Positions 619 to 19,574 of a DNA stretch of 64,000 nt are shown here, piece by piece. Position numbers and translations under genes: made by a program. Where the stretch lies: NCBI RefSeq assembly GCF_963667985.1, contig NZ_OY764081.1:1585599-1649598 (forward strand), in the 5' to 3' direction. The DNA comes from an uncultured Methanocorpusculum sp. (GTDB taxonomy: Archaea > Halobacteriota > Methanomicrobia > Methanomicrobiales > Methanocorpusculaceae). Numbering within the stretch: position 1 is the first letter of the stretch; each line of letters opens with the position of its first letter. Under the pieces are notes generated by a model. It made no database searches and was not told the origin of the DNA. It saw only the letters and a program-made list of their open reading frames with translations.

Positions 619-846
619 GATATCACCACCGCGGGCCGCTCCGCGCCGAAGTCGCGGCCCCGCACCCCGATAAAAACAAAAATGAATGATAACCAAAAAG
701 AAAAACCCGCACGCGGGTTTTTCCCCAGCATTTTTCCAGACGGCGTGCGATTTCTGCGCAGGCGATAAGCCGGAGCAGAGCACGACGACGCAAGAAAAAT
801 GCGATTCGCGAGAATTCGCGGAGATTCGCGGTGGGATTTCTCTTGT
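619..846 (+). repeat. Structured repeat R2, copy 1
   Basis: This fills the 325-bp gap between the restriction gene and the rhomboid gene. In order it has: a hairpin module with the loop CTCCGCGCCGAAGTCG; a perfect hairpin AAAAACCCGC-AC-GCGGGTTTTT (701-722); an outer arm GCATTTTTC that pairs with GAAAAATGC; a nested 39-nt stem-loop (745-783) with GTGC/GCAC, CTGC/GCAG and GGC/GCC stems around a GATAA loop; then ATTCGCG repeats ending in CGCGGTGGGAT. The left border GATATCACCACCGCG is roughly the inverse of the right border. Other copies are at 8629, 19189 and 19394. Confidence 0.8.
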
Positions 847-876
847 GTCCCCTCCCAGCCTTACCCTTCCCGAATC

Positions 877-1674
877 TCACCCTTCCGCCTTTTCACTTTC
901 TGCCTCCGGCAGCTTCTCCAGCACCAAAGCCAGGATCACACCCAGAATAAATCCGAACACATGACCAAAGAAATTGATCAGATCTCCATCCATCAGACCC
1001 ACTACATCCATAGTCAGAACAAACAACCCCGCGGTCCACACCACAAACACCGTCGTTAAGCAGAAGAGAAACGCAAACAGCCCGGACAGGGATCTGAATA
1101 GTCCGGGATCTGACTTCCTCATAGATTTATAGGAATAAGATCCCGCTAACAAAATTAGCTGGATCAGGAAGATCCCTACAATGGCAGTAACGACTCCGGA
1201 AAACCCAATCACATCCACCGACTCCGCGGATATCAGCCTCCATCCAATAACCGAACTCAGGGAAACAAACACCGGGAGAACGAAAACAGTCAGCACGTTC
1301 AGACAGAAAAGATAATACGGCGGCATCGGTTTTTTCCGCAGCCCTTCGCGCGCCCAGATCGTCAGCAGAACTAAACCTGAAAATAAAGCATATCCTAACA
1401 CATTGTTCAGCAAATGAGACATGTCCATATGGAAATAGGAAGAAACAAACGTGGACAAAGGTGTCGGAGACATAGTATCCATCTTAATGATCGACCTGAA
1501 CTCTTCAGCGGTCAGAGAAGAGATGCTGCCGATGTTATCATAGACCAGCTGACAAACAAACAGCGCAATGCAGACAAATAGAATAAACAGAGCTGAAGTG
1601 ATATATTTGTGATCCATCAGCCAGCGAAGGCCGAATTTTACGGCAAAACTTTTTGCAGGGGTTTTTGTCGTCAT
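877..1674 (-). CDS. Rhomboid-family intramembrane serine protease
   Basis: This 265-residue polytopic membrane protein has about six hydrophobic segments. It carries the rhomboid signature: SHLLNN near residues 86-91 (the HxxN oxyanion motif), GFSG at 157-160 with the likely catalytic Ser159, and FFGHVFGFILG with the likely catalytic His238. Rhomboids cleave transmembrane substrates within the bilayer. The frame also allows a TTG start ten codons upstream (1704); the ATG at 1674 is preferred. Between TM1 and the HxxN helix lies a loop of about 45 residues. No partner gene is adjacent. The 3' end faces an R2 repeat. Confidence 0.8.
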   Translation of the reverse strand: MTTKTPAKSFAVKFGLRWLMDHKYITSALFILFVCIALFVCQLVYDNIGSISSLTAEEFRSIIKMDTMSPTPLSTFVSSYFHMDMSHLLNNVLGYALFSGLVLLTIWAREGLRKKPMPPYYLFCLNVLTVFVLPVFVSLSSVIGWRLISAESVDVIGFSGVVTAIVGIFLIQLILLAGSYSYKSMRKSDPGLFRSLSGLFAFLFCLTTVFVVWTAGLFVLTMDVVGLMDGDLINFFGHVFGFILGVILALVLEKLPEAESEKAEG

Positions 1675-1786
1675 CTTATCAGAATGATACTCTGTTGTTT
1701 TCAAAACTCATAATAGAAACCCGGGAAAAAAAAGATCTTTTGATCACCCGTTCGCGCCTCAGCAAACGGACGGCTCACGTCCAGAA

Positions 1787-2119
1787 TCACACCACCCTGC
1801 CCAAAGGCCCCCTCCCAACAAACTCCCTTACCTCATCTTCCCCGAACTCCTCCCGGATCATCTTCCTCACCCACTCCCGATAGATCGCCCGCTTACTCTC
1901 AACAAGCGACGTGCCGCACTCACTGCAGAACTTCGCCCTCCCCGCATTCACAAAAGAACACTCCGGACATACATTCACAAGACCAAGCCTGCTCTGCATA
2001 GCTCCCCTAATCCACTCCTGCGTCGTCATCCCTTCAACCTTTGCCGCCGTTTCCATAAGGGATTTCATGCTCGCGGGGAGGCGCACAAGGATCTGATAGT
2101 TGTTTCGTTCTTCTTTCAT
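1787..2119 (-). CDS. Ribbon-helix-helix protein with C-terminal zinc ribbon
   Basis: The 110-residue protein begins with a short basic stretch and YQILVRLPASMKSLMETAAK, followed by GMTTQEWIRGAMQSRL. This is the beta-strand plus two-helix pattern of MetJ/Arc-type DNA-binding domains. Residues 51-69 carry CPECSFVNAGRAKFCSECG, a CxxC-x12-CxxC zinc ribbon. The charged tail could be another helix. RHH dimers bind DNA through the strand; the ribbon probably adds a DNA or protein contact (inference). It lies downstream of a second RHH gene on the same strand, with an R3 repeat between them. Confidence 0.65.
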   Translation of the reverse strand: MKEERNNYQILVRLPASMKSLMETAAKVEGMTTQEWIRGAMQSRLGLVNVCPECSFVNAGRAKFCSECGTSLVESKRAIYREWVRKMIREEFGEDEVREFVGRGPLGRVV

Positions 2120-2154
2120 CGTTCAAAAAGATCTGTTCTCGGTAAATTTCAGAA

Positions 2155-2212
2155 GTCGCAAATCAGAGATTTGCTCCGCTGAGGTCGTCCGCTTTCAGCG
2201 TCCAACCCGCTC
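2155..2212 (-). repeat. Short hairpin repeat R3, copy 1
   Basis: On the minus strand it reads GAGCGGGTTGGACGCTGAAAGCGG, then GACGACCTCAGC, then the hairpin GCAAATC-TCT-GATTTGC. It starts directly at the stop codon of the upstream RHH gene (2211-2213). Related copies are at 5682 and 7536 in sense orientation after genes, and at 6835. Confidence 0.75.
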
Positions 2213-2456
2213 AGAGCAGCCTTCTGCACAGCTCCTTTTGGATCTCCGGATCCTGCAGCATCGCAAGCATCTTCGCCTTCTCCGCATCGATCCCCATATC
2301 TCTCCTCGCCAGATCCGTTAAAATCGTCGCCGTCAGATAATCACTGATCGACTCGAACTGCGGCTTATCTCCCTTCGTCAAAGCAACCACGCGGTCATAG
2401 ACCTCCCAGCTCACCCGTGTACTGAGCAAAGGCTTCTTACTTTTCACTGCGACCAT
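2211..2456 (-). CDS. Small ribbon-helix-helix regulator
   Basis: The 81-residue protein begins MVAVKSKKPLLSTRVSWEVYD. The pattern LLSTRVSWEVYDRVVAL followed by SISDYLTATILTDLAR fits a ribbon-helix-helix DNA-binding domain of the plasmid copy-control or antitoxin type. The frame stays open upstream for 55 codons, but that part is cysteine-rich and overlaps promoter-like DNA, so the ATG at 2456 is chosen. A perfect dyad TTATATAC-N6-GTATATAA lies 15 bp upstream and covers a TATA-like box, which suggests autoregulation. No toxin partner is evident. Confidence 0.65.
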   Translation of the reverse strand: MVAVKSKKPLLSTRVSWEVYDRVVALTKGDKPQFESISDYLTATILTDLARRDMGIDAEKAKMLAMLQDPEIQKELCRRLL

Positions 2457-2552
2457 ATCTGTATGTAAACTTATATACGCATGAGTATATAATACCAATA
2501 CAAAACAACAGCAATTAAATATCTCCGTGACATAATTACTCTTGTAACCCCG
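2457..2552. promoter_or_regulatory. Divergent promoter region with perfect 8-bp dyad
   Basis: TTATATAC (2471-2478) and GTATATAA (2485-2492) are perfect inverted repeats with a 6-bp spacer; each half also resembles an archaeal TATA box. The dyad sits just upstream of the RHH gene. GTATGTAA at 2461-2468 is the inverse of the TTACATAC motif repeated at 2883 and 3096. It is a candidate operator for the RHH protein. Confidence 0.5.
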
Positions 2553-2774
2553 ATGGATCCAAAACTCAGCGGGGCAAATTCCTATCTGAAACAGAATAAC
2601 TACACAACTTACCGGCAGCATCTGGCAGAGGGGAGCCCTAGGCAGTGGCCCGACGCACAGCGAGGCATTTTGACCCAGATAGACTACAGAGACCCAGGCA
2701 TCCGGACTCTGTTTTCACCACTTATTCTTGGATGCATCAAAGAGATCCTGGAAAAAGGACAGGACAAAACCTGA
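2553..2774 (+). CDS. Hypothetical small protein
   Basis: This 73-codon frame starts MDPKLSGANSYLKQNNYT and ends KEILEKGQDKT. Its amino-acid composition is ordinary rather than biased, and it lies divergent from the RHH gene across a shared promoter-like region. I recognise no family. No clear ribosome-binding site precedes the ATG, and a second frame overlaps its end, so it may not be translated. Confidence 0.35.
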   Translation: MDPKLSGANSYLKQNNYTTYRQHLAEGSPRQWPDAQRGILTQIDYRDPGIRTLFSPLILGCIKEILEKGQDKT

Positions 2775-2807
2775 CCAACATTCAACCTCTTTTATCTATG
2801 TATCTAT

Positions 2808-3050
2808 GCATGTACCTAGATACACAAATCAAAAAAACGATATCCCCCGCCAGACTACGTCCGGACGGAAGGAAAGACGTACTTACATACACACATAAAT
2901 GTAATTTCTCTCTCTCTTCTGTACAAAACAAAGTACATACTATACTTATAAAAAAAAAGTGATTGATGAGCAATTTTCTTCCCGTATTTACTTACTTACG
3001 GACGTAGTCCTTACCCCCCCATCGTTTTTTTAACACATATATCTACATGC
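2808..3050. repeat. Large imperfect inverted repeat with TTACATAC motifs
   Basis: Left arm 2808-2863 and right arm 2999-3050 share, in inverted order, GCATGTA, AAAAAAACGAT and GACTACGTCCG. The two long blocks are separated by 11 bp in both arms. The 135-bp interior is AT-rich and holds TTACATAC (2883-2890) and GTACATAC (2933-2940); a further TTACATAC lies at 3096-3103 and its inverse at 2461-2468. No gene is supported between 2775 and 3221. The layout (RHH regulator, iteron-like motifs, dyad) fits a plasmid origin or partition site, but no replication protein is present. Confidence 0.55.
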
Positions 3051-3221
3051 ACACATACCTGTCCGCATATCTGCGCAAATACAAAGTATGCAAATTTACA
3101 TACAATTTGATGCAAATAATTAAAATTAAATATCTGCAGAACCCATCTTTTCTTGTAAGTCATACGGCTTGCCAAACATCGAACAAACAAGGAAGTGAAA
3201 AACATAGGACTAACATTCACC

Positions 3222-3353
3222 ATGTACATCGGAGAACCGGATCGAACAACCTTCGAAGCCTTCTCAAGAAAGTACCCGAGACCGCACACATCGAAAATGA
3301 TCCTCGGTCTCATGCGAAAAAACCTCAACGACCACGGAGAAATCGATGCCTGA
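3222..3353 (+). CDS. Small RHH-like protein, first gene of overlapping array
   Basis: This 43-residue frame (MYIGEPDRTTFEAFSRKYPR...) ends in TGA at 3351-3353 and overlaps the next gene's ATG at 3346. Its segment SKMILGLMRKNL parallels SSMIVGFMENAL in the next protein, so both may be small helix-rich DNA-binding proteins of RHH type (inference). It opens a run of eight same-strand genes joined by start/stop overlaps. Confidence 0.45.
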   Translation: MYIGEPDRTTFEAFSRKYPRPHTSKMILGLMRKNLNDHGEIDA

Positions 3354-3717
3354 CTACAAAGTCTACATCCCCGAAGCAAAAGCCCCTCTTCTTTACCAAT
3401 ATAAAGAACAGTTCGGCAAAGACGCCTCGTCCATGATCGTCGGATTCATGGAAAACGCCCTCGCCAACACCGACAAAACCGGACGGCAAAACCCGGTAGC
3501 TTCCACGGCACATGACATCTATCAGATCTACTTCGGCGACATTGAAAGCGAAAAAGCCTTTCTCTACCTCTTCGATACCCGGGAAAGTGCCGGACTCGCC
3601 CTCTAAAACCGGACGGACATTCTCATCAGAAAACATCCCGACATCTGTACCGACGTCATCGCACAGTTCAAAAAAACCTATCCCAAACTCGCAAAGATCA
3701 CAGGAATTACAACATGA
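3346..3717 (+). pseudogene. RHH-like protein interrupted by an in-frame TAA
   Basis: The frame from ATG 3346 gives 86 residues (MPDYKVYIPEAKAPLLYQYK..., RHH-like N-terminus) and stops at TAA 3604-3606. The same frame then continues with normal coding character (NRTDILIRKHPDICTDVIAQ...) for 36 codons to a TGA at 3715-3717. That TGA forms an ATGA overlap with the next gene, as at other junctions of this array. This suggests the ancestral gene ran to 3717 and has a nonsense mutation. Alternatively, the 86-residue product is the functional form. Confidence 0.55.
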
Positions 3718-4097
3718 AACAAAAACACAGCAAAAGAACCACGGAAAAAACCAGGAACACGCCAAAAAAACATGCCTGCCCGATGACAGTCACGAAACAG
3801 AATCAGGGAACAGGCAAAAAATTATTTGACGCAACGAAAGAAAAATCCACCGGACCGGACATCGAAATCATCACCGGATTCACGGTTGCCGCCACCCCGG
3901 GCCTTCATGCTCATCTCGAAAATCTCGACCCCGTTGAGTGGCAGATCCTCAACACGGCCCTGTACGACGCACACCACGACATCGTCCAGACGGTCCTCTC
4001 GATCCTCGCTGCAAAGGGCGTCGCCGTTTCTTCGCTCGGCGGCGAAGTACTCAGGTTCACGCTCCAGTTCCTCAAAAACATCCCGGAGGAGCCGTAA
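3714..4097 (+). CDS. Hypothetical protein of overlapping array
   Basis: The 127-residue protein has a lysine-rich, probably disordered N-terminus (first 45 residues) and a compact helical C-terminal part (LENLDPVEWQILNTALYDAH, then VLSILAAKGVAVSSLGGEV). I recognise no family. It overlaps the preceding frame by ATGA and the HNH gene by TAATG, so it is probably translated by coupling within one transcript. Confidence 0.55.
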   Translation: MKQKHSKRTTEKTRNTPKKHACPMTVTKQNQGTGKKLFDATKEKSTGPDIEIITGFTVAATPGLHAHLENLDPVEWQILNTALYDAHHDIVQTVLSILAAKGVAVSSLGGEVLRFTLQFLKNIPEEP

Positions 4098-4621
4098 TGC
4101 AGGAGCATAAACCCTGTCTCGGCCTGCGGCTCGCTGACCGGGTGATCCTCTCGAGGATCCTTGCCGGAACCTGGAAAGTCGATGCGGAAAACGGCGAGAT
4201 CATCTCGCGAAACACCGGTAAGCCTATGAGCTTTTCCCGTAAGAACAACGGATATCGTTCGATCCGTGCCCGATATAAGGGATTCATGGTGGACATCACC
4301 AAGCACCGGGCCGTCTATATCGGCGGGACCTGCAAAACGATGGACGACCTTCCGGTCGATCTGAACCTCCATATCGACCACATCAACGGAAACATCGATG
4401 ACTGCCGGCTCGCAAACCTCCGGTTGATCCCGTGCTGGGACAACAACCACCCGCAGTCGGGACGGAAACTGCGAATCTTTACGGATGAACAGGTCAGGGA
4501 GATCCGACGACGGTATGCGGAAGGCGAACCTCCCCGGGTCCTTGCACCGGAGTTCGGCGTGGCCAAAAGCACAATCCACCGACTCGTTTCCCGGCGGACC
4601 TATGCGGAGGTGGGCCTGTGA
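4097..4621 (+). CDS. HNH endonuclease with C-terminal HTH
   Basis: The start is the ATG at 4097, which overlaps the previous stop and follows GGAGGAG; the longer open frame upstream is a shadow. The 174-residue product carries HIDHINGNIDD followed by NLRLIP and NNHPQSGRK, the HNH nuclease core of phage and homing-type endonucleases. At the C-terminus FTDEQVREIRRRYAEGE and FGVAKSTIHRLV form a helix-turn-helix that probably sets DNA specificity. Such free-standing enzymes nick or cut DNA and are common in viruses and plasmids. Its place in a dense overlapping array supports a mobile-element origin. Confidence 0.85.
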   Translation: MQEHKPCLGLRLADRVILSRILAGTWKVDAENGEIISRNTGKPMSFSRKNNGYRSIRARYKGFMVDITKHRAVYIGGTCKTMDDLPVDLNLHIDHINGNIDDCRLANLRLIPCWDNNHPQSGRKLRIFTDEQVREIRRRYAEGEPPRVLAPEFGVAKSTIHRLVSRRTYAEVGL

Positions 4622-4878
4622 GCGAACCTGGGACTGAATACCTGCGGAGGATCAAGTTCTCCTGTCCGGTCTGCCTAAACTCGGTCACGGAAAAGGTCTG
4701 GGTCGAGGACAAACGCGATCTGAAACAGGCGGTTCAAAACTGCCCGGTCTGCGGGTCGCCGACGCTTCGGATCGATTCGCCGGATGACGACATCCAGTTC
4801 TTCGCCTACCTCGATATGCGAAGGACGATTCAAGAGAGAATCGACGAGCAGATGGAGTATACGTATGACTACACATGA
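4618..4878 (+). CDS. Small zinc-ribbon protein
   Basis: The GTG start at 4618 overlaps the HNH gene stop (GTGA). The 86-residue product has two CxxC pairs (CPVCLNSV and CPVCGSPT) about 28 residues apart, consistent with a zinc ribbon. An acidic, helical tail follows (MRRTIQERIDEQMEY). I do not recognise the family; binding to nucleic acid or a partner protein is possible. Its stop overlaps the next gene by 14 bases. Confidence 0.6.
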   Translation: MSEPGTEYLRRIKFSCPVCLNSVTEKVWVEDKRDLKQAVQNCPVCGSPTLRIDSPDDDIQFFAYLDMRRTIQERIDEQMEYTYDYT

Positions 4879-5350
4879 TTCCGCAGAGGTCCTTTCCGTT
4901 CTGGAGGCGGCGTTTCCCTGCCCGGAGGAGGAGTATGCGGATGCATTTTACTGCCAGGAGATGACGAAGGTTCTGGAGGAACTCGCGGGTTTCTTTGCGG
5001 CCCGGTTTTCGGAGACGGTTGACGAGATCAGGGCAGGCGGTCTTGAGTCTGCGGAGTTTGTTCTCCGGCTGGAGGAGCGGCGGAGTAAGATGGTGAATGT
5101 GCCGCTGCTTCGCGAGGAGATGCCGGATCTGTTTGCGGAGCTGGCGTTCGTTTCAACGGCGGATGCGGGGAAGCTTCTGTCGAAGAAGTTCCTGTATGAT
5201 GCGACGAAGAGTCTGATCAAGGACCGGATCGTGAATTATGAGCAGGTGAATCTTAAGGATCTGGAGACGTGGCTTCCGGCACCGGAGTTTTCCCGGTATG
5301 TGTCGGAGCGGGTGGTCCCGAAGGGGTATGTTGTGGAGGTGAAGTCGTGA
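4865..5350 (+). CDS. Hypothetical helical protein of overlapping array
   Basis: The ATG at 4865 lies inside the end of the zinc-ribbon gene and follows a GGAG. The 161-residue product is acidic and mostly helical (EEYADAFYCQEMTKVLEELA...), with a C-terminal motif LKDLETWLPAPEFSRYVSERV. I recognise no domain. Conserved overlap with both neighbours supports translation. Confidence 0.6.
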   Translation: MTTHDSAEVLSVLEAAFPCPEEEYADAFYCQEMTKVLEELAGFFAARFSETVDEIRAGGLESAEFVLRLEERRSKMVNVPLLREEMPDLFAELAFVSTADAGKLLSKKFLYDATKSLIKDRIVNYEQVNLKDLETWLPAPEFSRYVSERVVPKGYVVEVKS

Positions 5351-5451
5351 AGCATTGGTATGAATGGGGTGAACCGAATGGTTCGCCCTCAGTGGAGCAA
5401 GGTTTTTCCTTGCGACTCAAGACCAGTGTCGAAGAAGGGGGTCACCCCTGA
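5347..5451 (+). CDS. Tiny ORF with palindromic interior
   Basis: A 34-residue frame from GTG 5347 overlaps the upstream stop (GTGA) and the downstream ATG (TGATG). Its first residues, VKHWYEW, resemble the next protein's MRHWYDF. The DNA between holds dyads, for example GGTGAACC-GAAT-GGTTCGCC and GCAAGG-TTTTT-CCTTGC. It may be an inserted structured element that duplicated the downstream start rather than a gene. Confidence 0.35.
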   Translation: MKHWYEWGEPNGSPSVEQGFSLRLKTSVEEGGHP

Positions 5452-5660
5452 TGAGACACTGGTATGATTTCCCGGAGCTTCTGGATAGAACGAAGCTAAA
5501 AGAGCTGGTGGATGCCGGGCTGAGTGTCCGGGAGCTGTCGATTAGGGCGGGCTGTTCGCGGCAGTGTGTGGAGACGGCTTTGAAGCGGCACGGACTTATG
5601 GCGAAGGGTCAACGGGGGGTGATGCCGCGGTTTATTAGGAGAAGGAGAGGGGAGGGGTAG
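5451..5660 (+). CDS. Small helix-turn-helix protein
   Basis: The 69-residue protein starts at ATG 5451, which overlaps the previous stop. Residues 16-48 (LKELVDAGLSVRELSIRAG then CSRQCVETALKRHG) form a clear helix-turn-helix like those of resolvases and phage regulators. A very basic tail (RFIRRRRGEG) follows. It is the last gene of the overlapping array. An R3 repeat starts about 20 bp after its stop. Confidence 0.6.
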   Translation: MRHWYDFPELLDRTKLKELVDAGLSVRELSIRAGCSRQCVETALKRHGLMAKGQRGVMPRFIRRRRGEG

Positions 5661-5681
5661 AGACCTCCATTATTTTTTTGG

Positions 5682-5738
5682 GAGCGGGTCGGACACTGAA
5701 AGCGGACGACCTCAGCTGAGAAAATCTTTGATTTGCGA
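5682..5738 (+). repeat. Short hairpin repeat R3, copy 2
   Basis: It reads GAGCGGGTCGGACACTGAAAG, then CGGACGACCTCAGC, and ends GATTTGCGA. It is about 85% identical to the inverse of copy 1. The terminal hairpin is damaged here (AAAATC-TTT-GATTTGC). It lies just 3' of the HTH gene, in sense orientation. Confidence 0.7.
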
Positions 5739-5740
5739 TT

Positions 5741-5933
5741 GTACTTCGATTTCGTGTACGGGATGAGCGCGGAAGCATGAGAAAATACCAACCGCGAATC
5801 GGCGCGAATCCGCCCTACGGGCGAGAAAATCGGATTTGCTTATCCTCACTCTCGCAATCCAGCTTCGCTGTCTTGCTCGTCCCTTCATCGGGACCGTTCG
5901 GGCAAATCCTGTCGGCGCCCCAGCGCCTCCTTT
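5741..5933 (+). repeat. R1 inverted repeat, left arm
   Basis: This 193-bp arm is about 97% identical (roughly six mismatches) to the inverse of 6424-6616. It starts with the border GTACTTCGATTTCGTGTAC, then ACCAACCGCGAATCGGCGCG, GCCCTACGGGC, GGATTTGC and the palindrome GGCGCC. With its partner it brackets the GxxExxY gene. The 39 bp between this arm and the gene must hold the promoter unless the arm supplies it. Confidence 0.85.
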
Positions 5934-5972
5934 GGAGAAATTATATCATCTCTCGAAAAAGAATGAAAAAAC

Positions 5973-6425
5973 ATGATGTCTGGTGATATAATCCTGCCCG
6001 AAGAAACGGATCATCTCTTTTTTGCCGAGGTTAGAAAAATTGTCGGGTGTGCTTTTCATGTGTATAACTCGCTTGGTAGCGGATTTCTGGAAGCAATATA
6101 TCGCGATGCTTTGATGATAGAATTCAGGGATAATGATATTCCTGCCGAGATGGAAAAACATCTGGATGTCTATTATAAGGGAGAAAAGCTGCCAAGCGCT
6201 TACAAAACGGATATCATCTGCTATGGGCAGATAATCCTTGAACTCAAAGCAGTCACCAAACTCACCGATGCGGATTCAGCTCAGATCCTTCATTATCTGA
6301 AAGCTACCGGTATCAAAACTGGGATATTATTCAATTTCGGCAAGAAGGGAAAACTTGAGTGGAAGAGATTTGTCTATTCCGATGAAAAATATCTGAATAA
6401 TGAGAATATCCGGAATACCCCATAA
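5973..6425 (+). CDS. GxxExxY-family PD-(D/E)XK nuclease-like protein
   Basis: The 150-residue protein has the family signature GSGFLEAIY (residues 29-37). Its C-terminal core has TDIICYGQIILELKAV, which fits the D...(E)xK active site of the PD-(D/E)XK fold to which this family is assigned. Cellular function of the family is unknown. An alternative start is three bases downstream. The coding sequence fills the space between two 193-bp inverted repeats, and its stop lies on the first bases of the right arm. It is AT-richer than core genes of the window. The gene and repeats together look like a mobile cassette, though no transposase is present. Confidence 0.85.
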   Translation: MMSGDIILPEETDHLFFAEVRKIVGCAFHVYNSLGSGFLEAIYRDALMIEFRDNDIPAEMEKHLDVYYKGEKLPSAYKTDIICYGQIILELKAVTKLTDADSAQILHYLKATGIKTGILFNFGKKGKLEWKRFVYSDEKYLNNENIRNTP

Positions 6426-6616
6426 AAGAGGCGCCGGGGCGCCGACAGGATTTGCCCGAACGGTCCCGATGAAGGGACGAGCAAGACAGCGAAGCTGGGT
6501 TGCGAGAGTGAGGATAAGCAAATCCGATTATCTCGCCCGTAGGGCGGATTCGCGCCGATTCGCGGTTGGTATTTTCTCATGCTTCCGCGCTCATCTAGTA
6601 CACGAAATCGAAGTAC
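6424..6616 (-). repeat. R1 inverted repeat, right arm
   Basis: It is the inverse of 5741-5933. It can fold: GGATTTGC pairs with GCAAATCC, enclosing GTCCC-GATGAA-GGGAC and GCAAGACAGC-GAA-GCTGGGTTGC, with GCCC-GTA-GGGC outside. It ends with CGCGGTTGGTATTTTCTCAT and the border TACACGAAATCGAAGTAC. Confidence 0.85.
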
Positions 6617-6834
6617 ATTCCGAAAAAATACAGAGAAATCAAGACAATTTCTCCCCATTATATCTACTTTTACGTCCAATATTATAGTAGAGGTTGGCAC
6701 ACCGCCAAAGATCCCTCCCCAAATATCGGAATAGAATACCATAACGATACTATATACAGAGTGGGTGCTTTCGAACAGTGTGCCGGCTTCGATAAAAATA
6801 GGATAGCTTTGGTCTCCTTTGACTTCCGCAGCAG
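6617..6834. other. Intergenic DNA, possible gene remnant
   Basis: No complete gene is supported here. A minus-strand frame reads through part of it (QSYPIFIEAGTLFES...), without a start or family match. It may be a decayed fragment between repeats R1 and R3. Confidence 0.25.
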
Positions 6835-6912
6835 ATCGCAAATCAGAGATTTGCTTGGCTAAGACCACCCCTCAAGGGGTTGCCCGCTCGCAAATCAAAG
6901 ATTTGCTCATCG
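6835..6912 (-). repeat. R3-like hairpin repeat, copy 3
   Basis: It contains two hairpins, GCAAATC-AGA-GATTTGC and GCAAATC-AAA-GATTTGC, separated by CCCC-TCAA-GGGG. The flank is related to R3 but the CTTTCAGCGTCC part is missing. It ends about 35 bp before the ATG of the next gene. Confidence 0.6.
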
Positions 6913-6948
6913 CTTCGGCCCTCTTCGATGACCTCAGCGCAATACAAT

Positions 6949-7440
6949 ATGACAGCAGATTTCATTCAGACAGCAATCTCGAAGTCCGCAAAGCGGATCT
7001 TCACCGCAGAGTTTACGAACGCCGCCGCGTATGATGCGATCATCGCAGAAATTACCGGCGTGGATAATCCCCTCGGCCTCGCCGAAGTCGAACTCGGGAA
7101 GCAGACCTACAAGACCTATGTCGGCTACTTCGACCCGAACACTTCCGAGATGAACGGCAAGGTCCAGGTCACAGCATATACCCGTGCTGAGTATGCCGCG
7201 GCAATCACCGCCCTTACCGGCAGTGCGGATCTCAAGACCGCATTCGGCAACGGCGGTACGGCAGAGACCTCCGAGATCGGTAACGAAGCAACGTGGAACG
7301 TCCGCATTTCCGCGAAGCTTGGGACCGATACTTTCCAGATCAGTCTCAACCGCGATTCGATGACCGTCTCCGGCTATGCCGACGACGCCACCCTTGCAGC
7401 GGTCGATGCCTGGGCAGATACGAAGCCGGCCCTGAACTAA
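6949..7440 (+). CDS. Hypothetical protein, possibly a virus-like structural protein
   Basis: The 163-residue product starts MTADFIQTAISKSAKRIFTA and is rich in Ala, Thr and Gly. Its alternating hydrophobic pattern (TYVGYFDPNTSEMNGKVQV, NVRISAKLGTDTFQISL) suggests a beta-rich domain. There is no signal peptide and no family I recognise. The composition is like small virion or tail-tube proteins, but that is only an impression. An ATG seven codons upstream (6928) is an alternative start. A 32-residue membrane peptide follows after 12 bp, so the two probably form an operon. Confidence 0.5.
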   Translation: MTADFIQTAISKSAKRIFTAEFTNAAAYDAIIAEITGVDNPLGLAEVELGKQTYKTYVGYFDPNTSEMNGKVQVTAYTRAEYAAAITALTGSADLKTAFGNGGTAETSEIGNEATWNVRISAKLGTDTFQISLNRDSMTVSGYADDATLAAVDAWADTKPALN

Positions 7441-7452
7441 CGGGAGGCGGAG

Positions 7453-7551
7453 ATGCAGATCCCCCGCCGGCTTAGGAAGCTCATCCTGCTCTTCCTCGGG
7501 TTTCTCATTATGCTTTTTGGGAAACTTGTAGATGGTTGGGTTGGACGCTGA
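7453..7551 (+). CDS. 32-residue single-pass membrane peptide
   Basis: The frame starts at ATG 7453 after a good ribosome-binding site (GGGAGGCGG, 12 bp after the upstream stop). It reads MQIPRRLRKLILLFLGFL then IMLFGKLVDGWVGR. A basic N-terminus followed by about 15 hydrophobic residues gives one membrane helix with the N-terminus probably inside. Its last codons are formed by an R3 repeat, so the natural C-terminus may have been altered by repeat insertion. Function is unknown. Confidence 0.5.
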   Translation: MQIPRRLRKLILLFLGFLIMLFGKLVDGWVGR

Positions 7552-7586
7552 AAGCGGAAGACCTCACCTGATCAAGTTTTCGAAGA
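7536..7586 (+). repeat. Short hairpin repeat R3, copy 4
   Basis: It reads GTTGGGTTGGACGCTGAAAG, then CGGAAGACCTCACCTG. Here the terminal hairpin is CAAGTT-N9-AACTTG instead of GCAAATC-GATTTGC. The stop codon of the membrane peptide (7549-7551) lies inside the repeat. Confidence 0.6.
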
Positions 7587-7609
7587 GAACTTGCGAGCGG
7601 TTCCTTGTG

Positions 7610-7646
7610 GGGCAGAGATGAATTCATCTCTGCCCGCGGGGTGTTT
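7610..7646 (+). terminator. Perfect 26-bp palindrome followed by T run
   Basis: GGGCAGAGATGAA (7610-7622) and TTCATCTCTGCCC (7623-7635) are perfectly complementary. GCGGGGTGTTTTTA follows. This looks like an intrinsic-type terminator for the two-gene unit upstream, although a cruciform or protein site is also possible. Confidence 0.6.
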
Positions 7647-7762
7647 TTATGGTGAGTGATCAGCACGTTAGCACATATTTGTACACATTTCCGCCCAGAT
7701 ATTCGACACACCGCAAATAAATTTTCCCCTCTTTTAAGAACATTTCCATAAATTAAAGATTG

Positions 7763-8326
7763 ATGGAATCTTATATGGTCACCATGGACTTCCTAGATCG
7801 ATTATCTGCTGTAAAATCCATTCTTTTGCCATCGGAGGAAGAAAAAAATAAAGAGAAAGGAGATATGTTTGAAATATATGTTGAGAGCCTTTTTGATAAA
7901 AGATATTTCATAACCGAAGAATGGACGTCAGACATCTACAATAAACGCAATGGCTCATATGTTGAGTCAAACAAAAATCCGGATATGGTTATCCGATATA
8001 AACCAACAGGAGAGCAGTTTGCTGTGGAATGTAAATATCGTTCTGATTTTACCTATTCTGAAAGAATTAATGATGTTTGTGTAAAATGGTCGTATCCAGA
8101 GCAAATTTACAGGTATAACGAGTTTCAGCAGATAAGACAGATGCCAGTATTTATTGTCATAGGTATTGGAGGTGAAAGTAACATTCGGAAAAAAGAGATC
8201 CCGGAACTAATGTTCTGTATACCATTAAGTAAGGCAAAATATCCAGAGACCTTCCCCTCCATTTTGCAACAGTATGAGAGAAATCCCTGCAATAACTTTT
8301 TCTGGAAATCCGGAGTACTTTCGTAA
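7763..8326 (+). CDS. PD-(D/E)XK nuclease, restriction-endonuclease-like
   Basis: The 187-residue protein contains NPDMVIRYKPTGEQFAVECKYR, a literal PD-x14-ECK active-site motif of the PD-(D/E)XK superfamily. An upstream acidic helix (KGDMFEIYVESLF) would supply the first acidic residue. Such proteins act as restriction or repair-type DNases. No methyltransferase is adjacent, so it is an orphan. A TTG one codon upstream is an alternative start. Codons are clearly AT-richer than in the core genes, suggesting recent acquisition. A single R1 repeat starts 65 bp after its stop, in the same orientation as the R1 arm behind the GxxExxY gene. Confidence 0.7.
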   Translation: MESYMVTMDFLDRLSAVKSILLPSEEEKNKEKGDMFEIYVESLFDKRYFITEEWTSDIYNKRNGSYVESNKNPDMVIRYKPTGEQFAVECKYRSDFTYSERINDVCVKWSYPEQIYRYNEFQQIRQMPVFIVIGIGGESNIRKKEIPELMFCIPLSKAKYPETFPSILQQYERNPCNNFFWKSGVLS

Positions 8327-8390
8327 TGCTCCCTATAGTATAGACATCACATATTTTTTTTATAAGAGATAATACTTGGAAGACTACTCA

Positions 8391-8580
8391 TAAGAGCCGT
8401 TGGGGCGGCGACAGGATTTGCCCGAACGTTCCCGATGAGGGATGAGCACGACAGCGAAGCTGGCTTGCGAAAGTGAGGATGAGCAAATCCGATTTTCTCG
8501 CCCGTAGGGCGGATTCGCGCCGATTCGCGGTTGGTTTTTTTTCATGTGTCCTCAATAATCCCTGATACGAATTCAGAATA
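8391..8580 (-). repeat. R1 repeat, solo copy
   Basis: This copy has the orientation of the right arm at 6424 and keeps the same fold: GGATTTGC/GCAAATCC enclosing TCCC-GATGA-GGGA and CAGC-GAA-GCTG, then GCCC-GTA-GGGC, CGCGGTTGGTTTT, and a degenerate border TACGAATTCAGAATAC. Substitutions relative to the paired arms are more frequent. No left partner lies upstream of the nuclease gene. Confidence 0.8.
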
Positions 8581-8628
8581 CACCCACATAAAAAAAAGAA
8601 TCTCTTAGCTTGGATCCAAAACCTTAAG

Positions 8629-8922
8629 GATATTTCCACCGCGTCGGGCTCCGCGCCGGAGTCGCCCTCCCGCACCCCGAATCAAAAAAAGGAGAGATAT
8701 GATATAAGAAAACCCGCGACGCGGGTTTTCCAGCATTTTTCGTTTCGCCGTCCCGACCACGCGGAGCCGATAAGGCGGAGCGTAGGGACGCGACCGAAGG
8801 TCAAGAGGGCGGAACTGGAAAAATGCGATTCGCGTTTATTCGCGATTGCGTGCAAGCCAAAGGCTTGCGTGCCGCCTCAAATGGGCTAAGCCCATTTGGG
8901 CTTATTCGCGGTGGGATATCTT
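8629..8922 (+). repeat. Structured repeat R2, copy 2
   Basis: Borders GATATTTCCACCGCG and CGCGGTGGGATATC are near-perfect inverted repeats. Inside are the loop module CTCCGCGCCGGAGTCG, the hairpin AAAACCCGC-GA-CGCGGGTTTT (8709-8729), a variant nested stem-loop (8750-8789, GTCCC/GGGAC with GCC-GATAA-GGC), and two extra perfect hairpins: GCAAGCC-AAA-GGCTTGC (8852-8868) and CAAATGGGCT-A-AGCCCATTTG (8878-8898). The border-like motif TACACGAAGTCAGAGTAC follows at 8943. With the solo R1 copy it fills the 670-bp gap before the ABC exporter. Confidence 0.8.
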
Positions 8923-8996
8923 ATGGTTCCAAAGAATACCTTACACGAAGTCAGAGTACGCCCCGCACCCCACATTTTCCAAAATAAAAAAAAGAA

Positions 8997-14614: not shown

Positions 14615-14631
14615 ATATGAGTGGTGAAGGC

Positions 14632-15254: not shown

Positions 15255-15896
15255 ATGGCTACCAAAAAAAGTAAGAAAACAGCTGAGCCGGAAGCTGCTC
15301 CCAAGCTCTTTTATATCTTCTACAATCAGGAGAGATGGGACAACTGGCTCAAGACGCTCGAAACCGCCGACTGGGAAGGGGACGAGGACTCGGATGAAAT
15401 GCCTGAAGGATTCAGAATTCTGGACGGATTTTCGGATGACATTACGCTTGCCGTAATCAAAATCATCCGTCTCTTCCAGAACGGCAGAATACCGCTTGAA
15501 GAGGCAAGAACAAAGCTCCGCAGTGTCGAAGAGATCGTCATGGGCGAAGTCATGGGCGAGGAACTTGCCGAGATCGTCGGATCGATGCAGGTCTCCCTTG
15601 TCGTCCTGTTTGCCGCCGGACAGAAATACCTTGAAGAGACGTATCCCCCGGTTGAAGAGATCAAAAATCTCGTCAAAGAAGGACGCAAAGTCGTCGCAAA
15701 AGATCCCGAAAAGGCTCTTGAGATCGCCTCGTCGATCGGGTCCGCCGTCATCAACGGAGCTTCCTGCTGCGGCAAATACGTAAAAGACACCGATGAGCCG
15801 ACCCTCTTTGATGAGTGGCTCGTCGAGGTCGAACGTATCGCCGACGCCATGAAATCTCTCAAAGACTTTGACGAGGAAGCCGGAGAAAGCTCGTGA
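15255..15896 (+). CDS. DUF2150-like archaeal conserved protein
   Basis: The 213-residue, acidic, mostly helical protein begins after a lysine-rich leader with LFYIFYNQERWDNWLKTLE. This and FSDDITLAVIKIIRLFQNG resemble the DUF2150 family of methanogens (recognition is moderate). No catalytic motif is apparent. Its stop overlaps the next gene's GTG start, so the two are probably co-translated. Confidence 0.6.
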   Translation: MATKKSKKTAEPEAAPKLFYIFYNQERWDNWLKTLETADWEGDEDSDEMPEGFRILDGFSDDITLAVIKIIRLFQNGRIPLEEARTKLRSVEEIVMGEVMGEELAEIVGSMQVSLVVLFAAGQKYLEETYPPVEEIKNLVKEGRKVVAKDPEKALEIASSIGSAVINGASCCGKYVKDTDEPTLFDEWLVEVERIADAMKSLKDFDEEAGESS

Positions 15897-16345
15897 TCGC
15901 GAGTAGGGCCCGGTTTCGCTACATCAAAAAACTTCAGCGTGCGGCAGGCCACCGTCTGCCCGAAGGCGCCTTTCATCCGGCAAATCTGGAAGCGATTACC
16001 GGATCAATGAATATCGATAGCCTGGACCCGGGAACGCGGGACCAGGTCCTCCGTTTTTTTAAGGATTTTCTGGAATGCAAATGCCGCGACTCACCCCTTT
16101 GCGGCTGCCCGGAACGAAAATTCGTCATCACGATCCTGGAACTTCGGGAGATGGGGCTGAACCACAAGGAGATCCACCGTCACCTGATAGACGAGTACGG
16201 GATCGATCTTTTCCCGGCCGATATCCTGAGTTTCCTCGAAGAGTCCGTCCACCTTCTTGAAGCCATCAGAAGTGTCGCGGACCTCGCCGGAGAAAACGAA
16301 CTCATGAACCTCTCCGACGAGCATATCCGAAATATTTCACGCTGA
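15893..16345 (+). CDS. Cysteine-motif protein, DUF5814-like
   Basis: The start is GTG 15893, overlapping the upstream stop. The 150-residue product contains CKCRDSPLCGCPERKF, a cluster of four cysteines that could bind a metal, followed by a helical region (MGLNHKEIHRHLIDEYGIDL). This resembles a module (DUF5814) that I recall at the C-terminus of some archaeal superfamily-2 helicases; here it stands alone. Recognition is tentative. Confidence 0.5.
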   Translation: MIASRARFRYIKKLQRAAGHRLPEGAFHPANLEAITGSMNIDSLDPGTRDQVLRFFKDFLECKCRDSPLCGCPERKFVITILELREMGLNHKEIHRHLIDEYGIDLFPADILSFLEESVHLLEAIRSVADLAGENELMNLSDEHIRNISR

Positions 16346-16429
16346 TCTCACGTTTTGAATACGTATCTTTATGAAGGGCCTGTTCCCAAAACCCAACTCT
16401 TTTTGTCTCACACACCAAACTAGAATATC

Positions 16430-16933
16430 ATGTTACTGGAGAAGAACGACTACTCCCAACAGATCGAGTATCTGTATCATAAATCCCTGGTCCTGGAAAC
16501 TCCGTCCGATATGGATCCGGTCCTGTACTTTTATTTTATCGACACGATCGCCCACCTGGATTATACCCTCTCACTGCTTTGCTTCAGCTCCGACTCTATA
16601 AAATGCACCATGACCGCGGAGTATCTGCGTACCCGCGTGGATACCGCAAAACAGGGAGATTATGCCCTTTTCCCCACATTCATGGTCTGGCTGAGAGACA
16701 ACCACAAAGAACAGTTCGAAGAGACACCCATTCTCTGGCAGCTCATCTATGACCCGGACGAGGTCTCCGCATACCTTGGATTCAGGATCGTTCTTGATCC
16801 AAACTCGAAAATACCCCTTCCGCCCCAGTTCTTCCATGACATGGCCGATGATCTTTTCGGCATGAAATTCCTCAGAAGCATCTACCCGGAGGGACCAATT
16901 GGAAAACTCTTCGCAGAATTCAAAAGGAAATAA
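16430..16933 (+). CDS. Conserved hypothetical protein
   Basis: The 167-residue protein starts MLLEKNDYSQQIEYLYHKSL and looks like a compact helical cytosolic protein with many aromatic residues. I recognise no domain or motif. It is followed four bases later by the M20 deacylase gene, so it probably shares its transcript. Confidence 0.6.
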   Translation: MLLEKNDYSQQIEYLYHKSLVLETPSDMDPVLYFYFIDTIAHLDYTLSLLCFSSDSIKCTMTAEYLRTRVDTAKQGDYALFPTFMVWLRDNHKEQFEETPILWQLIYDPDEVSAYLGFRIVLDPNSKIPLPPQFFHDMADDLFGMKFLRSIYPEGPIGKLFAEFKRK

Positions 16934-16936
16934 CCT

Positions 16937-18124
16937 ATGAATGCAGCAAAGCTCTGCTCAGATCTGATACAGATACGTAGCGACAATCCGCCCGGCGACA
17001 CGAGCGAGGTTGCCGAATATATTTTATCCGTAATGGAAGGGATCGGCATCCCCGGAACGATCACATCCGGCCCGGATGGTCATGACAATGTCATCTCAAA
17101 GGACCAGACCGGCCGCCTCCTTCTCACCGGACACATCGATGTGGTCCCGGCACTGAACGAGGGCTGGAAGTATGCACCGTATTCCGGGAAGATCGACGAT
17201 ACCTATGTGCACGGACGCGGGGCGACCGACATGAAAGGCGGATGTGCCGCGGTTTTGTCGGCGGTTGCCAGAGCAAAGGATGCGGGCGATGAACTGCCGG
17301 TCTCTCTTGCCTTCGTCTGTGACGAGGAAGGGGGAGGCAGATACGGCACCCGGTATCTGCTGGAGAAAAATCTCATCCACCCGTGTGATGTTTTGATCGC
17401 CGAACCGACGCCTGCCTATGCCCCGGCGGTCGGACAAAAAGGCGTCTGCAGATTCGATGTGGATTTTATCGGAACCCCCGGCCATTCGTCGCTGTATCCG
17501 ATCCTCGGCGAGAGTGCCGTGATCCAGGCGATGGATTTCCTCTACTGGATGGGAGAACTGCACAAACGCGTGTATCCGCAGACAGAGGAGATGGAAAAAC
17601 TCATCGAGCATTCGACCAAGATCGCCGGAGAGGGAACGACGACGGACTTCGGCCCGGTGTTTCGGCAGATCATGTATAATCCGGGCATCATTTCCGGCGG
17701 GGAACGGGTCAATATCGTCGCCCAGAAATGTTCTCTCATGATGGACATGCGGCTCCCGTGGGGATGCGACTGTGATGAGATCTTAGATGAGATCTGCAGT
17801 CATATCCCGAAATCGGCCGTCCTCACCCCCCGAACCAAAGCGAACGCTTCGCTGACGGCGAGCGACTCGTTCCTTGTGCAGAAAACCTGCGAAGCCATCA
17901 GCGAGGTGTACGGGATCACCTCGCGGCCCATGGTCCAGTGGGCCGCATCCGACGCCCGGGCGCTTCGTCTGGCGGGTTTCCGTGCTCTCGAATACGGACC
18001 CGGCGACCTTAGCACCATGCACGGCCTGAATGAAAAGGTCTCTATCGACCAGCTGAACAAATGCGAAGAGATCTACTATAGACTCATCCAGAACTACACA
18101 AATACACAACAGGAGATATCATAA
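16937..18124 (+). CDS. M20-family deacylase (ArgE/DapE type)
   Basis: The 395-residue protein is a zinc-dependent amidohydrolase of the ArgE/DapE/ACY1 group. Metal and catalytic motifs are present: TGHIDVVPA (His, and Asp two residues later), GRGATDMKGG (bridging Asp), and CDEEGGG (catalytic Glu and metal-binding Glu). The dimerisation domain is in the middle (FDVDFIGTPGHSS), and the C-terminal motif TMHGLNEKVS supplies the last His ligand. The substrate could be succinyl-diaminopimelate or N-acetylornithine. Neither pathway is encoded nearby, so the choice is open. The stop overlaps the RaSEA start (TAATG). Confidence 0.85.
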   Translation: MNAAKLCSDLIQIRSDNPPGDTSEVAEYILSVMEGIGIPGTITSGPDGHDNVISKDQTGRLLLTGHIDVVPALNEGWKYAPYSGKIDDTYVHGRGATDMKGGCAAVLSAVARAKDAGDELPVSLAFVCDEEGGGRYGTRYLLEKNLIHPCDVLIAEPTPAYAPAVGQKGVCRFDVDFIGTPGHSSLYPILGESAVIQAMDFLYWMGELHKRVYPQTEEMEKLIEHSTKIAGEGTTTDFGPVFRQIMYNPGIISGGERVNIVAQKCSLMMDMRLPWGCDCDEILDEICSHIPKSAVLTPRTKANASLTASDSFLVQKTCEAISEVYGITSRPMVQWAASDARALRLAGFRALEYGPGDLSTMHGLNEKVSIDQLNKCEEIYYRLIQNYTNTQQEIS

Positions 18125-19098
18125 TGACAGACCCACGAAAACCGCTCGCTTCCTGGAAAGGGCAGGACAGATACTTCGGCGAAGTCCTTTCGTCTCTGAC
18201 CGGGATCTTTCTTTCCGGCGGCTGTTCCTGGAACAGATGCAGGATGTGCGGATATAAAAACGACCGCGACACCTGCTCGAAGGATGAACTGATCGATCAC
18301 ATGAAAGGGCAGATCCTCTGGATGCAGGAAAATTACTCGCCCGATGAATACCAGCTTGGAAAGATCTTCACCTCGGGAAGCGTCTTCGACCCGAACGAAG
18401 TTCCTCTCGAGGTACTTGATGCGTTCGGGGAGTTCTTTGCAGGAAAACCGCTGATCGCCGAGTCGAGATCCGAGTATGTAACGGAAGATGCCCTCTCCCG
18501 CCTGCTGAAAAGCCTCGACAAAGGTCAGGCCCATCCGCTGACGGTCGCGATAGGTCTTGAAACGACGAACGACGCCATTCGGGAAAAGTCGATCGATAAA
18601 GGAAACACCTTTGAAGATTTCATCAAAACTGCCGAGACGGCGCATAATGCAGGTGTCGGTGTCAAGGCATATCTGATGATGAAGCCGCTCTTTTTAACGG
18701 AAAAAGAGGCGATGGAGGATATGGAAAAATCCATCCGCGAGGTCGCACCCTACGCAGACATGATCTCGATGAACCTCTGCACGATCCAGGGCAGAACGGA
18801 GCAGGAACATTACTGGCAGAAGGGAGGTTTCCGGCCGCCGTATCTCTGGTCTGCGGTGAAAGTTCTCCGGGAAGCTGACGTCCCGGTCGCATGCGATCCG
18901 GTCGGCGGCGGATTCAAACGGGGCCCTCACAACTGCGGGACCTGCGATAAAGAGATCGTTGCCGCGATCAACGAGTATTCGCTTACGGCTGACAAGAGTG
19001 TTCTGGACGACGTCTGGGAGATTCCCTGCGCATGCAAAAAAGAGTGGGAGTATGTTCTTGCGAACGAACGTTCGTGGAACATGCCCCTCACGCAGTAA
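18124..19098 (+). CDS. Archaeosine biosynthesis radical SAM protein RaSEA
   Basis: The 324-residue protein carries GCSWNRCRMCGY near residues 34-45, a radical-SAM cysteine motif of C-x4-C-x2-C form. GLETTNDAIREKSIDKG and a C-terminal cysteine-rich part (NCGTCDKE, PCACKKEW) follow. These match RaSEA, which acts with the lysine transferase ArcS to convert preQ0-Lys into archaeosine at tRNA position 15. ArcS is not in the window. The gene overlaps the M20 deacylase stop and has a good ribosome-binding site (AGGAGAT). A T-rich run follows the stop. Confidence 0.8.
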   Translation: MTDPRKPLASWKGQDRYFGEVLSSLTGIFLSGGCSWNRCRMCGYKNDRDTCSKDELIDHMKGQILWMQENYSPDEYQLGKIFTSGSVFDPNEVPLEVLDAFGEFFAGKPLIAESRSEYVTEDALSRLLKSLDKGQAHPLTVAIGLETTNDAIREKSIDKGNTFEDFIKTAETAHNAGVGVKAYLMMKPLFLTEKEAMEDMEKSIREVAPYADMISMNLCTIQGRTEQEHYWQKGGFRPPYLWSAVKVLREADVPVACDPVGGGFKRGPHNCGTCDKEIVAAINEYSLTADKSVLDDVWEIPCACKKEWEYVLANERSWNMPLTQ

Positions 19099-19116
19099 TT
19101 TTTTTTCTTTTTTTAT
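19099..19116 (+). terminator. Poly-T terminator after RaSEA gene
   Basis: Directly after the stop come two T runs (TTTTTTTTCTTTTTTTA), the usual archaeal termination signal. A short tandem repeat, TTTATAGGAC twice, overlaps its end. Confidence 0.55.
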
Positions 19117-19188
19117 AGGACTTTATAGGACTTACGCGGTGTTATCCTCAATCCAATTCGGAAAGAGAATGACCGGGTATGGATACTA

Positions 19189-19344
19189 GAGATAAAAACA
19201 ACCGCGAATCTCCGCGAATCCTCGCGAATCCTCGCGAATCGCATTTTTCTTGCACCGCCGTGCTCTGCTCCGGCTAATCGCCTACGCAGGAATCGCACGC
19301 CGGCTGGAAAAATGCTATTGGAAAAACCGGCGTGCCGGTTTTTC
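19189..19344 (-). repeat. Structured repeat R2, copy 3 (inverted)
   Basis: On the minus strand it has the hairpin AAAAACCGGC-AC-GCCGGTTTTT, the GCATTTTTC arm, the 39-nt nested stem-loop with a GATTA loop (19260-19298), and CGCGAAT repeats ending in CGCGGTTG. The terminal hairpin differs from copies 1 and 4 (CCGGC/GCCGG instead of CCCGC/GCGGG) by paired changes, so base pairing is kept. It faces copy 4 across a 49-bp spacer. Confidence 0.8.
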
Positions 19345-19393
19345 TCTCCGTAAACTTCTCATTTGATGTAAGCGAAAAAGAATGAATCAACAG

Positions 19394-19574
19394 AAAAACC
19401 CGCACGCGGGTTTTTCCTCAGCATTTTTCAAGAGAGGGTGCGATTCCTGCGTAGGCGATCAGCCGGAGCAGAGCACCCGAACGTAAGGAAAATGCGATTC
19501 GCGTTAATTCACGGAAATTCGCGGTTGGTTTTTCTCTTGTTCCCACATGAATAACATACACGAAATCGAAGTAC
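19394..19574 (+). repeat. Structured repeat R2, copy 4
   Basis: It has the hairpin AAAAACCCGC-AC-GCGGGTTTTT (19394-19415), the nested 39-nt stem-loop with GATCA loop (19438-19476), ATTCGCGG repeats, CGCGGTTGGTTTTTCTCTTG, and the border motif TACACGAAATCGAAGTAC (19557-19574). That border motif is identical to the one ending the R1 arms. Copies 3 and 4 fill the convergent gap between RaSEA and the methionine aminopeptidase gene. Confidence 0.8.

Follow-up and report, generated by a model that had tools for sequence, protein, structure and literature searches.

We analysed a stretch of 64,000 nucleotides (hereafter, the window) from the genome of an uncultured Methanocorpusculum species (contig NZ_OY764081.1, positions 1,585,599 to 1,649,598), here designated G000, which consists of one contig of 1.76 Mb. 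The window contains four copies of a repeat, R2, that combines hairpins with short iterons. We propose that R2 is the inner module of an element resembling a miniature inverted-repeat transposable element (MITE) with TAGGANTTACGCGG ends, and that it belongs to a system similar to that of REPINs (doublets of repetitive extragenic palindromic, REP, sequences) and RAYT (REP-associated tyrosine transposase), with an unrelated, small and scarcely studied nuclease, GxxExxY, as the partner; we put the probability of this reading at about 0.68. Empty sites and target duplications show that R2 copies are mobile. In bacteria and in archaea, GxxExxY genes tend to be flanked by inverted, outward-facing iteron arrays, and the array type follows the protein type.

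The initial annotation had described four R2 copies with one foldable layout, and all four can be read directly in the window. An A5/T5-flanked hairpin, part of that description, holds as a layout except in copy 2, where the flanks are A4/T4. The GCC-GATAA-GGC version of copy 2 and the CCGGC/GCCGG stem of copy 3 are present as claimed, and the CCCGC stem occurs in three copies rather than two. The extents required correction: the proposed starts at 619 and 8629 belong to a separate upstream module X, and copies 3 and 4, which lack this module, are the two halves of a single inverted pair. The features are as follows.

619..680, plus strand: module X of copy 1, CCACCGCGGGCCGCTCCGCGCC..CCCGCACCCCGA
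700..723, no strand: terminator-like palindromic hairpin of copy 1, GAAAAACCCGC-AC-GCGGGTTTTTC
728..802, plus strand: armed stem-loop of copy 1, in which GCATTTTTC (728-736) pairs with GAAAAATGC (794-802), with a GATAA loop
803..832, plus strand: outward array of three ATTCGCG iterons of copy 1, starting at 804, 814 and 824
8629..8690, plus strand: module X of copy 2
8708..8826, plus strand: palindromic hairpin (8708-8730) and armed stem-loop of copy 2 (class C, GCC-GATAA-GGC), with arms at 8733-8741 and 8818-8826
8827..8911, plus strand: iterons of copy 2, at 8828, 8838 and 8904, the last two separated by a double-hairpin insert of about 58 bp
19126..19139, plus strand: outer terminal inverted repeat TAGGACTTACGCGG of the element with copies 3 and 4
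19200..19344, minus strand: copy 3, with iterons (19200-19239), armed stem-loop (19241-19315; stem CCGGC/GCCGG, loop GATTA) and palindrome (19320-19344)
19393..19524, plus strand: copy 4, with palindrome (19393-19416), armed stem-loop (19421-19495; stem CCCGC/GCGGG, loop GATCA, one arm pair weakened to G-T) and iterons (19497-19524)
19615..19626, minus strand: right outer terminal repeat CCGCGTAACTCC of the element with copies 3 and 4, without the terminal TA

The double-hairpin unit of about 58 bp, which has varied stems and lies at 8846-8903 in copy 2, is also inserted into the GATNA loop in a number of other R2 copies (L028, L029 and L093).

Terminal inverted repeats, TAGGANTTACGCGG/CCGCGTAANYCCTA, bound R2-bearing elements. 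We collected 31 elements of up to 1600 bp that have both ends with up to two mismatches per end; they include some orthologues and are not all independent, and longer outer-repeat pairs (>1600 bp) exist outside this count. Exact 6-bp target duplications were found in 7 of the 31 elements, compared with 1.7% of mismatched flank pairs, and a duplication matching at five of six positions in 5 further elements, compared with 10%. At least two ATTCGCG iterons lie inside 27 elements, and one or none in the other four. Empty sites in related genomes had been set beforehand as a test of mobility, and we found two R2 insertions and the site of copies 3 and 4 (site A) empty in sister species. Where G000 has GAAGGATCTTAAAAAAGATTTT, genome G005 carries an insertion of 454 bp that contains R2 and is delimited by TAGGACTTACGCGG repeats and a CTTAAA duplication; the alignment block of G010 is continuous across this site. 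In G010, an insertion of 492 bp contains an R2 pair and is accompanied by a TTAAAA duplication; here the blocks of G005 and G021 are continuous. At site A, G021 has a short spacer between the same genes, G000, G005 and G010 have different cores within the same outer wings, and G011 has other, CACGGAA-like repeats adjoining a run of Ns; G006, in which the contig stops close to this site, was left out of the comparison.

The main rival explanation is an ordinary MITE, in which a conventional transposase acts on the TAGGANTTACGCGG outer repeats and GxxExxY with its iterons is a nested passenger. Conventional (DDE) transposition typically involves terminal repeats and 6-bp duplications. The rival also agrees with the finding that the same outer ends enclose cores of two array classes (A and B, defined below), with the shared wings around cores that differ between species at site A, with the four elements that have at most one ATTCGCG iteron, and with the lack of a GxxExxY open reading frame (ORF) in 30 of the 31 elements. 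However, the presence of at least two iterons in 27 elements argues against a mere passenger, and the correspondence between array type and GxxExxY type is left unexplained. No transposase was noticed either, in a genome search that covered only the Y1 family and in elements of up to 1600 bp whose ORFs were not compared with family libraries. We regard the ordinary MITE as doubtful, albeit a serious contender.

In the window, one GxxExxY ORF is bracketed by an inverted pair of class-B repeats (202 nt, 96% complementary), which are related to R2. The ORF scores 134.6 bits against TIGR04256 (cut-off 35) and 133.5 bits against Pfam PDDEXK_3.

5732..5933, minus strand: left inverted end of the GxxExxY element (class B), with iterons at 5793 and 5803 and GGATTTGC/GCAAATCC arms at 5832 and 5902
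5973..6425, plus strand: GxxExxY gene (TIGR04256 / PDDEXK_3), 150 amino acids
6424..6625, plus strand: right inverted end of the same element, with arms at 6448 and 6518 and iterons at 6548 and 6558
8389..8604, plus strand: class-B half element without GxxExxY, with arms at 8414 and 8483 and iterons at 8513 and 8523

In G005, GxxExxY genes at 1221056-1221403 and 1637895-1638242 each lie between outward-facing R2 halves. TIGR04256 was matched 19 times in the six R2-bearing genomes. We checked 16 of these loci for arrays; the other three are fragments in G011. All 11 loci from these genomes in our genus list have outward arrays on both flanks. So do three of five further loci, and the remaining two have an array on one flank, with Ns opposite in one case (G010:C13) and only 56 bp opposite in the other (G000, 94944). 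The whole genus list of 29 GxxExxY loci includes 20 with arrays on both sides and two with an array on one side. Three protein types and three array types can be distinguished, namely class A (ATTCGCG x3, that is, R2), class B (GATTCGCGCCGATTCGCGG) and class C (TTTTCGTG..TTTCGTG), and two or three types share one genome.

The same arrangement extends far beyond the genus. We scanned GTDB genomes and took the best 80 of 579 GxxExxY loci (78 bacterial and two archaeal), searching for the pattern TYYGYG-N(1-7)-TYYGYG within 350 bp and excluding sides shorter than 200 bp from the flank counts. An outward array is present on 116 of 152 flanks, whereas windows farther out have one on 1-9 of 123-141 flanks, and shuffled flanks on a mean of 2.1 of 152 (maximum 6). 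Arrays occur on both sides at 49 of 72 loci; in the more distant windows this was the case at 0 of 43-61. As a control we used TIGR02436 genes, which are present in 31 of 40 genomes holding GxxExxY loci: at 30 loci from these genomes, none of 58 flanks has an array, and TIGR02436 was thus ruled out as a second partner. The recognisable outer repeat (up to two mismatches) was found at 4 of the 80 GTDB loci.

The arrays also differ from locus to locus together with the protein. The periods of the left and right arrays agree (rho 0.77, n = 50 loci), with spacings mostly of 8-9. Mantel comparisons of protein and iteron distances used 66 of the 80 GTDB loci (those with an array and no stop) and 21 of the 29 genus loci (leaving out seven without arrays and L400). 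For the GTDB loci, rho was 0.31 for the period and 0.30 for 5-mers, or 0.26 and 0.27 after correction for GC content. The genus loci gave 0.53 and 0.80, unchanged by the correction. In both sets, none of 1000 permutations reached values as high, with GC correction as well.

GxxExxY is predicted to be a PD-(D/E)XK nuclease with residues like those of Cas4 and lambda exonuclease. G-x-x-E-x-x-Y, D80, E90-x-K92, Q104 and Y108 are invariant in 19 archaeal sequences, and the same residues are invariant in 44 mostly bacterial ones, with K92 nearly so; E40, D80, E90-x-K92 and Q104-xxx-Y108 form a set resembling the active site of those enzymes. A structure model (mean predicted local distance difference test, pLDDT, 84) is closest in fold to the Cas4 protein SSO0001 (4ic1), with a Foldseek E value of 5.5e-5 and a template modelling score of 0.47 by query; structural comparison gave Z 9.7 and a root-mean-square deviation of 6.0 over 105 aligned residues. 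Restriction enzymes and the Hjc resolvase follow at Z of about 6-8, so that the assignment to the PD-(D/E)XK fold is clear and that to a subfamily less certain. A sequence search of PDB with GxxExxY gave no match. The iron-sulphur cluster of Cas4 requires several cysteines. No cysteine is conserved in the 19 archaeal GxxExxY sequences, and C46 is nearly invariant in the 44 mostly bacterial ones.

Gene-less inverted doublets of iteron arrays are frequent in the genomes examined. We surveyed 16 genomes of the GTDB loci, chosen in most cases for their CTCTGTG-type arrays, with a 24-bp three-unit pattern. The pattern occurs in 13 of the 16 bacterial genomes, up to 29 times per strand, and the reversed control gave zero except for three matches in one genome. 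Among 150 listed rows of six genomes, neighbours within 200 bp of each other comprise 38 outward, four inward (all on one array contig) and no same-strand pairs; at 201-700 bp there are five outward and one inward. The outward gaps cluster near 46 bp, and a few are near 400 bp, which is about the size of a GxxExxY gene. In the bacterial genome G351, the sequences just outside some doublets (L448-L455) are inverted to each other, the longest at L455 (score 20), as if the doublet occupied the tip of an older hairpin. This likeness exceeded permutations in G351 (eight doublets, 21/10000) and did not in G361 (12 doublets, 8211/10000). At 49 GxxExxY loci, the inverted likeness of the outer flanks is mostly a shared GTGAA/GTTAA-type tail; permutations reached it 0 times in 10000 with the tail and 19 times in 10000 after skipping five letters. 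Insertion into hairpin tips is at present only a lead.

The short inverted doublets, apparently moved in trans as REPINs are described to be, raise the question of whether R2 is itself a REP or REPIN moved by RAYT, a Y1 transposase of the HUH type. Genes of this family (PF01797) are present in five of six bacterial genomes searched. However, PF01797 matched nothing in the six R2-bearing genomes, nor in G351, despite its 29 forward and 19 reverse array matches. Within the sensitivity of this profile, the result speaks against a Y1 or RAYT mobiliser of R2, and we hold this explanation to be very improbable.

Under our preferred reading, R2, with its hairpins and outward ATTCGCG iterons, would form the inner parts of a MITE-like element that generates 6-bp target duplications, and the R2 elements would be non-autonomous relatives of elements in which GxxExxY is the one recognised gene. 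GxxExxY may bind its cognate iterons, cut folded or cruciform DNA, and spread gene-less copies in trans, much like the role proposed for RAYT with REPINs. Stem-loops might stay paired as the substrate, with palindrome correction favouring perfect arms, and a preference for sites where convergent genes end would make insertions less harmful to the host. Recognition of the arrays by GxxExxY has indirect support; the enzyme may also catalyse the movement. The stronger proposal is that GxxExxY itself mobilises these units, that is, that a lone Cas4/RecB-like nuclease recognises outward iterons at regular spacing, spreads iteron doublets and occasional cargo (such as a KAP ATPase) in trans, and defines a class of mobile element across bacterial and archaeal phyla. 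We hold this tentatively, at somewhat less than even odds.

Several findings weigh against these proposals. Seven of the 29 genus GxxExxY loci have no such array, including the paired 'MYRIVGCA' type. The array pattern is also found inward on 33 of the 152 flanks of the GTDB loci. The archaeal loci are weaker, with outward arrays on 29 of 59 flanks, inward ones on 11, and both sides occupied at 10 of 29 loci; farther out, the pattern is present on 2 of 55 flanks. Among the 31 outer-repeat elements, L159 alone has a GxxExxY ORF, and it lacks an exact duplication; the outer repeats could thus be the target of a different enzyme. A recognisable outer repeat lies within 400 bp outward of 22 of 94 R2 copies and within the same distance inward of 17. 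It was found at none of 20 bacterial doublet loci, which suggests that the bacterial elements end differently.

The fold of R2 is well maintained. When folded as single-stranded DNA, copies 1 and 2 (z -7.7 and -6.2) were each better than all 200 shuffles. Copy 3 gave z -3.6 (0/200 shuffles as low) and copy 4 z -1.9 (8/200), for stretches that clipped part of the hairpin. We aligned 92 of 94 collected copies (91 distinct), leaving out two long class-C copies; window copy 2 is absent from the alignment. Standard pairs make up 99.2% of 2912 stem cells, and this fraction falls to 40-51% when partners are slid by 1-3 columns. That the stems differ by paired changes, as first noted from the four window copies, was borne out on this larger scale: double changes affect 8 of 32 pairs (81 cells), and none of 500 shuffles was as high on any of five measures. 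These cells overstate the number of events, because they partly follow the lineages of copies, and 73 of the 81 are located at two pairs, columns 13/20 (52 C-G, 38 G-C) and 51/91 (54 C-G, 35 G-C). The GAT of the unpaired GATNA loop is invariant, and the GATT of the internal loop is mostly invariant or nearly so.

Such paired changes fit RNA and DNA alike and do not discriminate between them. Moreover, template-switch correction of DNA palindromes can yield paired changes without selection on the fold. In this alternative, which is compatible with a mobile element, the double changes in R2 reflect quasi-palindrome correction in replication. The flip of C-G to G-C at columns 13/20, a two-base change made in one correction step, is consistent with it, as are other perfect small palindromes with varied stems in the region; the invariant GAT and the mostly invariant internal GATT are unexplained by correction, although recent common descent could account for them. 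We see this origin of the paired changes as possible, with the odds somewhat against it.

R2 is unevenly distributed. A search of its own genome with copy 1 gave 41 matches, 19 of which cover at least 120 of the 151 query positions. The repeat was matched in 10 of 25 genus genomes: six, including G000, hold 20-56 matches each, one has 12 weaker matches and three have a single weak match. Six of the 12 genus genomes of at least 90% completeness have no match. Many copies are arranged as inverted pairs whose halves lie about 50 bp apart. A BLAST search of plasmids with copy 1 found no match. Inverted R2 copies also surround unrelated cargo (L039, L165, L170 and L180), comprising a KAP NTPase in two species, a YdjM-like protein and a 1278-aa ORF without a Pfam match.

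All four window copies sit between convergent ORFs. Placement at gene 3' ends, noted in the initial annotation, is thus true of these four but does not extend to every other copy: by ORF calling, the 94 copies of the six genomes comprise 47 convergent, 33 tandem, 7 divergent and 6 undecided cases, with one copy omitted because of Ns. A family of regulatory RNAs or bidirectional terminators at convergent gene ends, in which the RNA fold is kept and the spread is passive, would suit the convergent setting of 47 of the 87 classified copies, the GC palindrome flanked by A5/T5, and the strong pairing with double changes. It would not predict target duplications and empty sites, inverted pairs around GxxExxY, or the lack of R2 matches in half of the 12 more complete genomes. 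Furthermore, an Rfam search of the window at gathering scores returned an archaeal signal recognition particle RNA and two tRNAs, with nothing on R2. We consider this explanation unlikely. Of the two forms in which the structure had been suggested to be selected, an RNA or a DNA hairpin mobilised in trans, the discrete non-coding RNA is unsupported and the mobile hairpin fits best, in view of the empty sites, target duplications, gene-less doublets and linked nuclease gene.

One of the closest known systems is REPIN/RAYT. REPINs are described as short inverted doublets in many copies; the single-gene partner is flanked by the same kind of repeat, and the repeat type matches the type of the protein, TnpA_REP. 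R2 and the iteron doublets share the inverted doublet as a unit, the single-gene partner and the matching of types. In contrast, the partner here is a PD-(D/E)XK nuclease by prediction rather than an HUH Y1 transposase, the palindromic REP is replaced by arrays of 2-4 short iterons, and Y1 was not found in the six R2-bearing genomes. Like insertion-sequence MITEs, R2 elements have terminal inverted repeats, 6-bp duplications and mostly no recognised ORF; unlike them, they have internal outward iterons, a nuclease in gene-bearing relatives and no recognised parental transposase (only Y1 was searched). GxxExxY resembles Cas4, lambda-exonuclease and RecB-type nucleases in fold and in its E, D, ExK and QxxxY residues, but differs from Cas4 in being a lone gene in a repeat-bounded unit with at most one near-invariant cysteine (C46). 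The Rpn / Transposase_31 recombination-promoting nucleases are small PD-(D/E)XK nucleases tied to DNA mobility that belong to another Pfam family, and we know of no iteron arrays associated with them. TIGR02436 proteins, which we take to be four-helix proteins linked to 23S rRNA intervening sequences, co-occur with GxxExxY but lack iterons on their flanks.

The initial annotation knew of no described family with the R2 layout, and this stands within the literature searched, with most subscription journals outside the search. Within the same scope, no account of a GxxExxY-repeat partnership was found under the family name, its accessions or the iteron strings. A query for PDDEXK and iterons gave nothing fitting among the matches listed, and a passage that names GxxExxY does not deal with repeats. 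If our reading is correct, a widespread nuclease family whose name is no more than a motif will gain a role and a DNA target, CTCTGTG/CGCGAAT-type repeats in environmental genomes will be accounted for, and REPIN-like palindromes moved in trans will have a second, unrelated enzyme type. Recognition is directly testable, since protein and iteron types are matched within one genome.

Other genomes of the genus have cargo between two GxxExxY genes that face each other and belong to a different type, for instance MYRIVGCA. The cargo is DpnI in G012 (L424), an ORF that starts identically in G013 (L426), and a C5 DNA methylase together with an ORF without a Pfam match in G014 (L428). In the window, a 188-aa ORF (7760-8326) lies directly before the class-B half element. 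It has no Pfam or NCBIfam match, and PD..ECK-like residues discerned by eye suggest a restriction-type nuclease. A stretch of about 14 kb (window 1-8986; G000 1580550-1594584) interrupts the alignment with G005, beside an apparent tRNA gene (by eye). It encodes a type ISP specificity domain, includes the GxxExxY element and ends next to R2 copy 2; its counterpart in G005, about 200 bp long, contains class-C-like repeats. Scattered in the window, at 2156-2183, 6836-6863 and 6888-6915, are small hairpins of the CGCAAATC-GATTTGC type; in related loci their stems differ and the pairing is kept.

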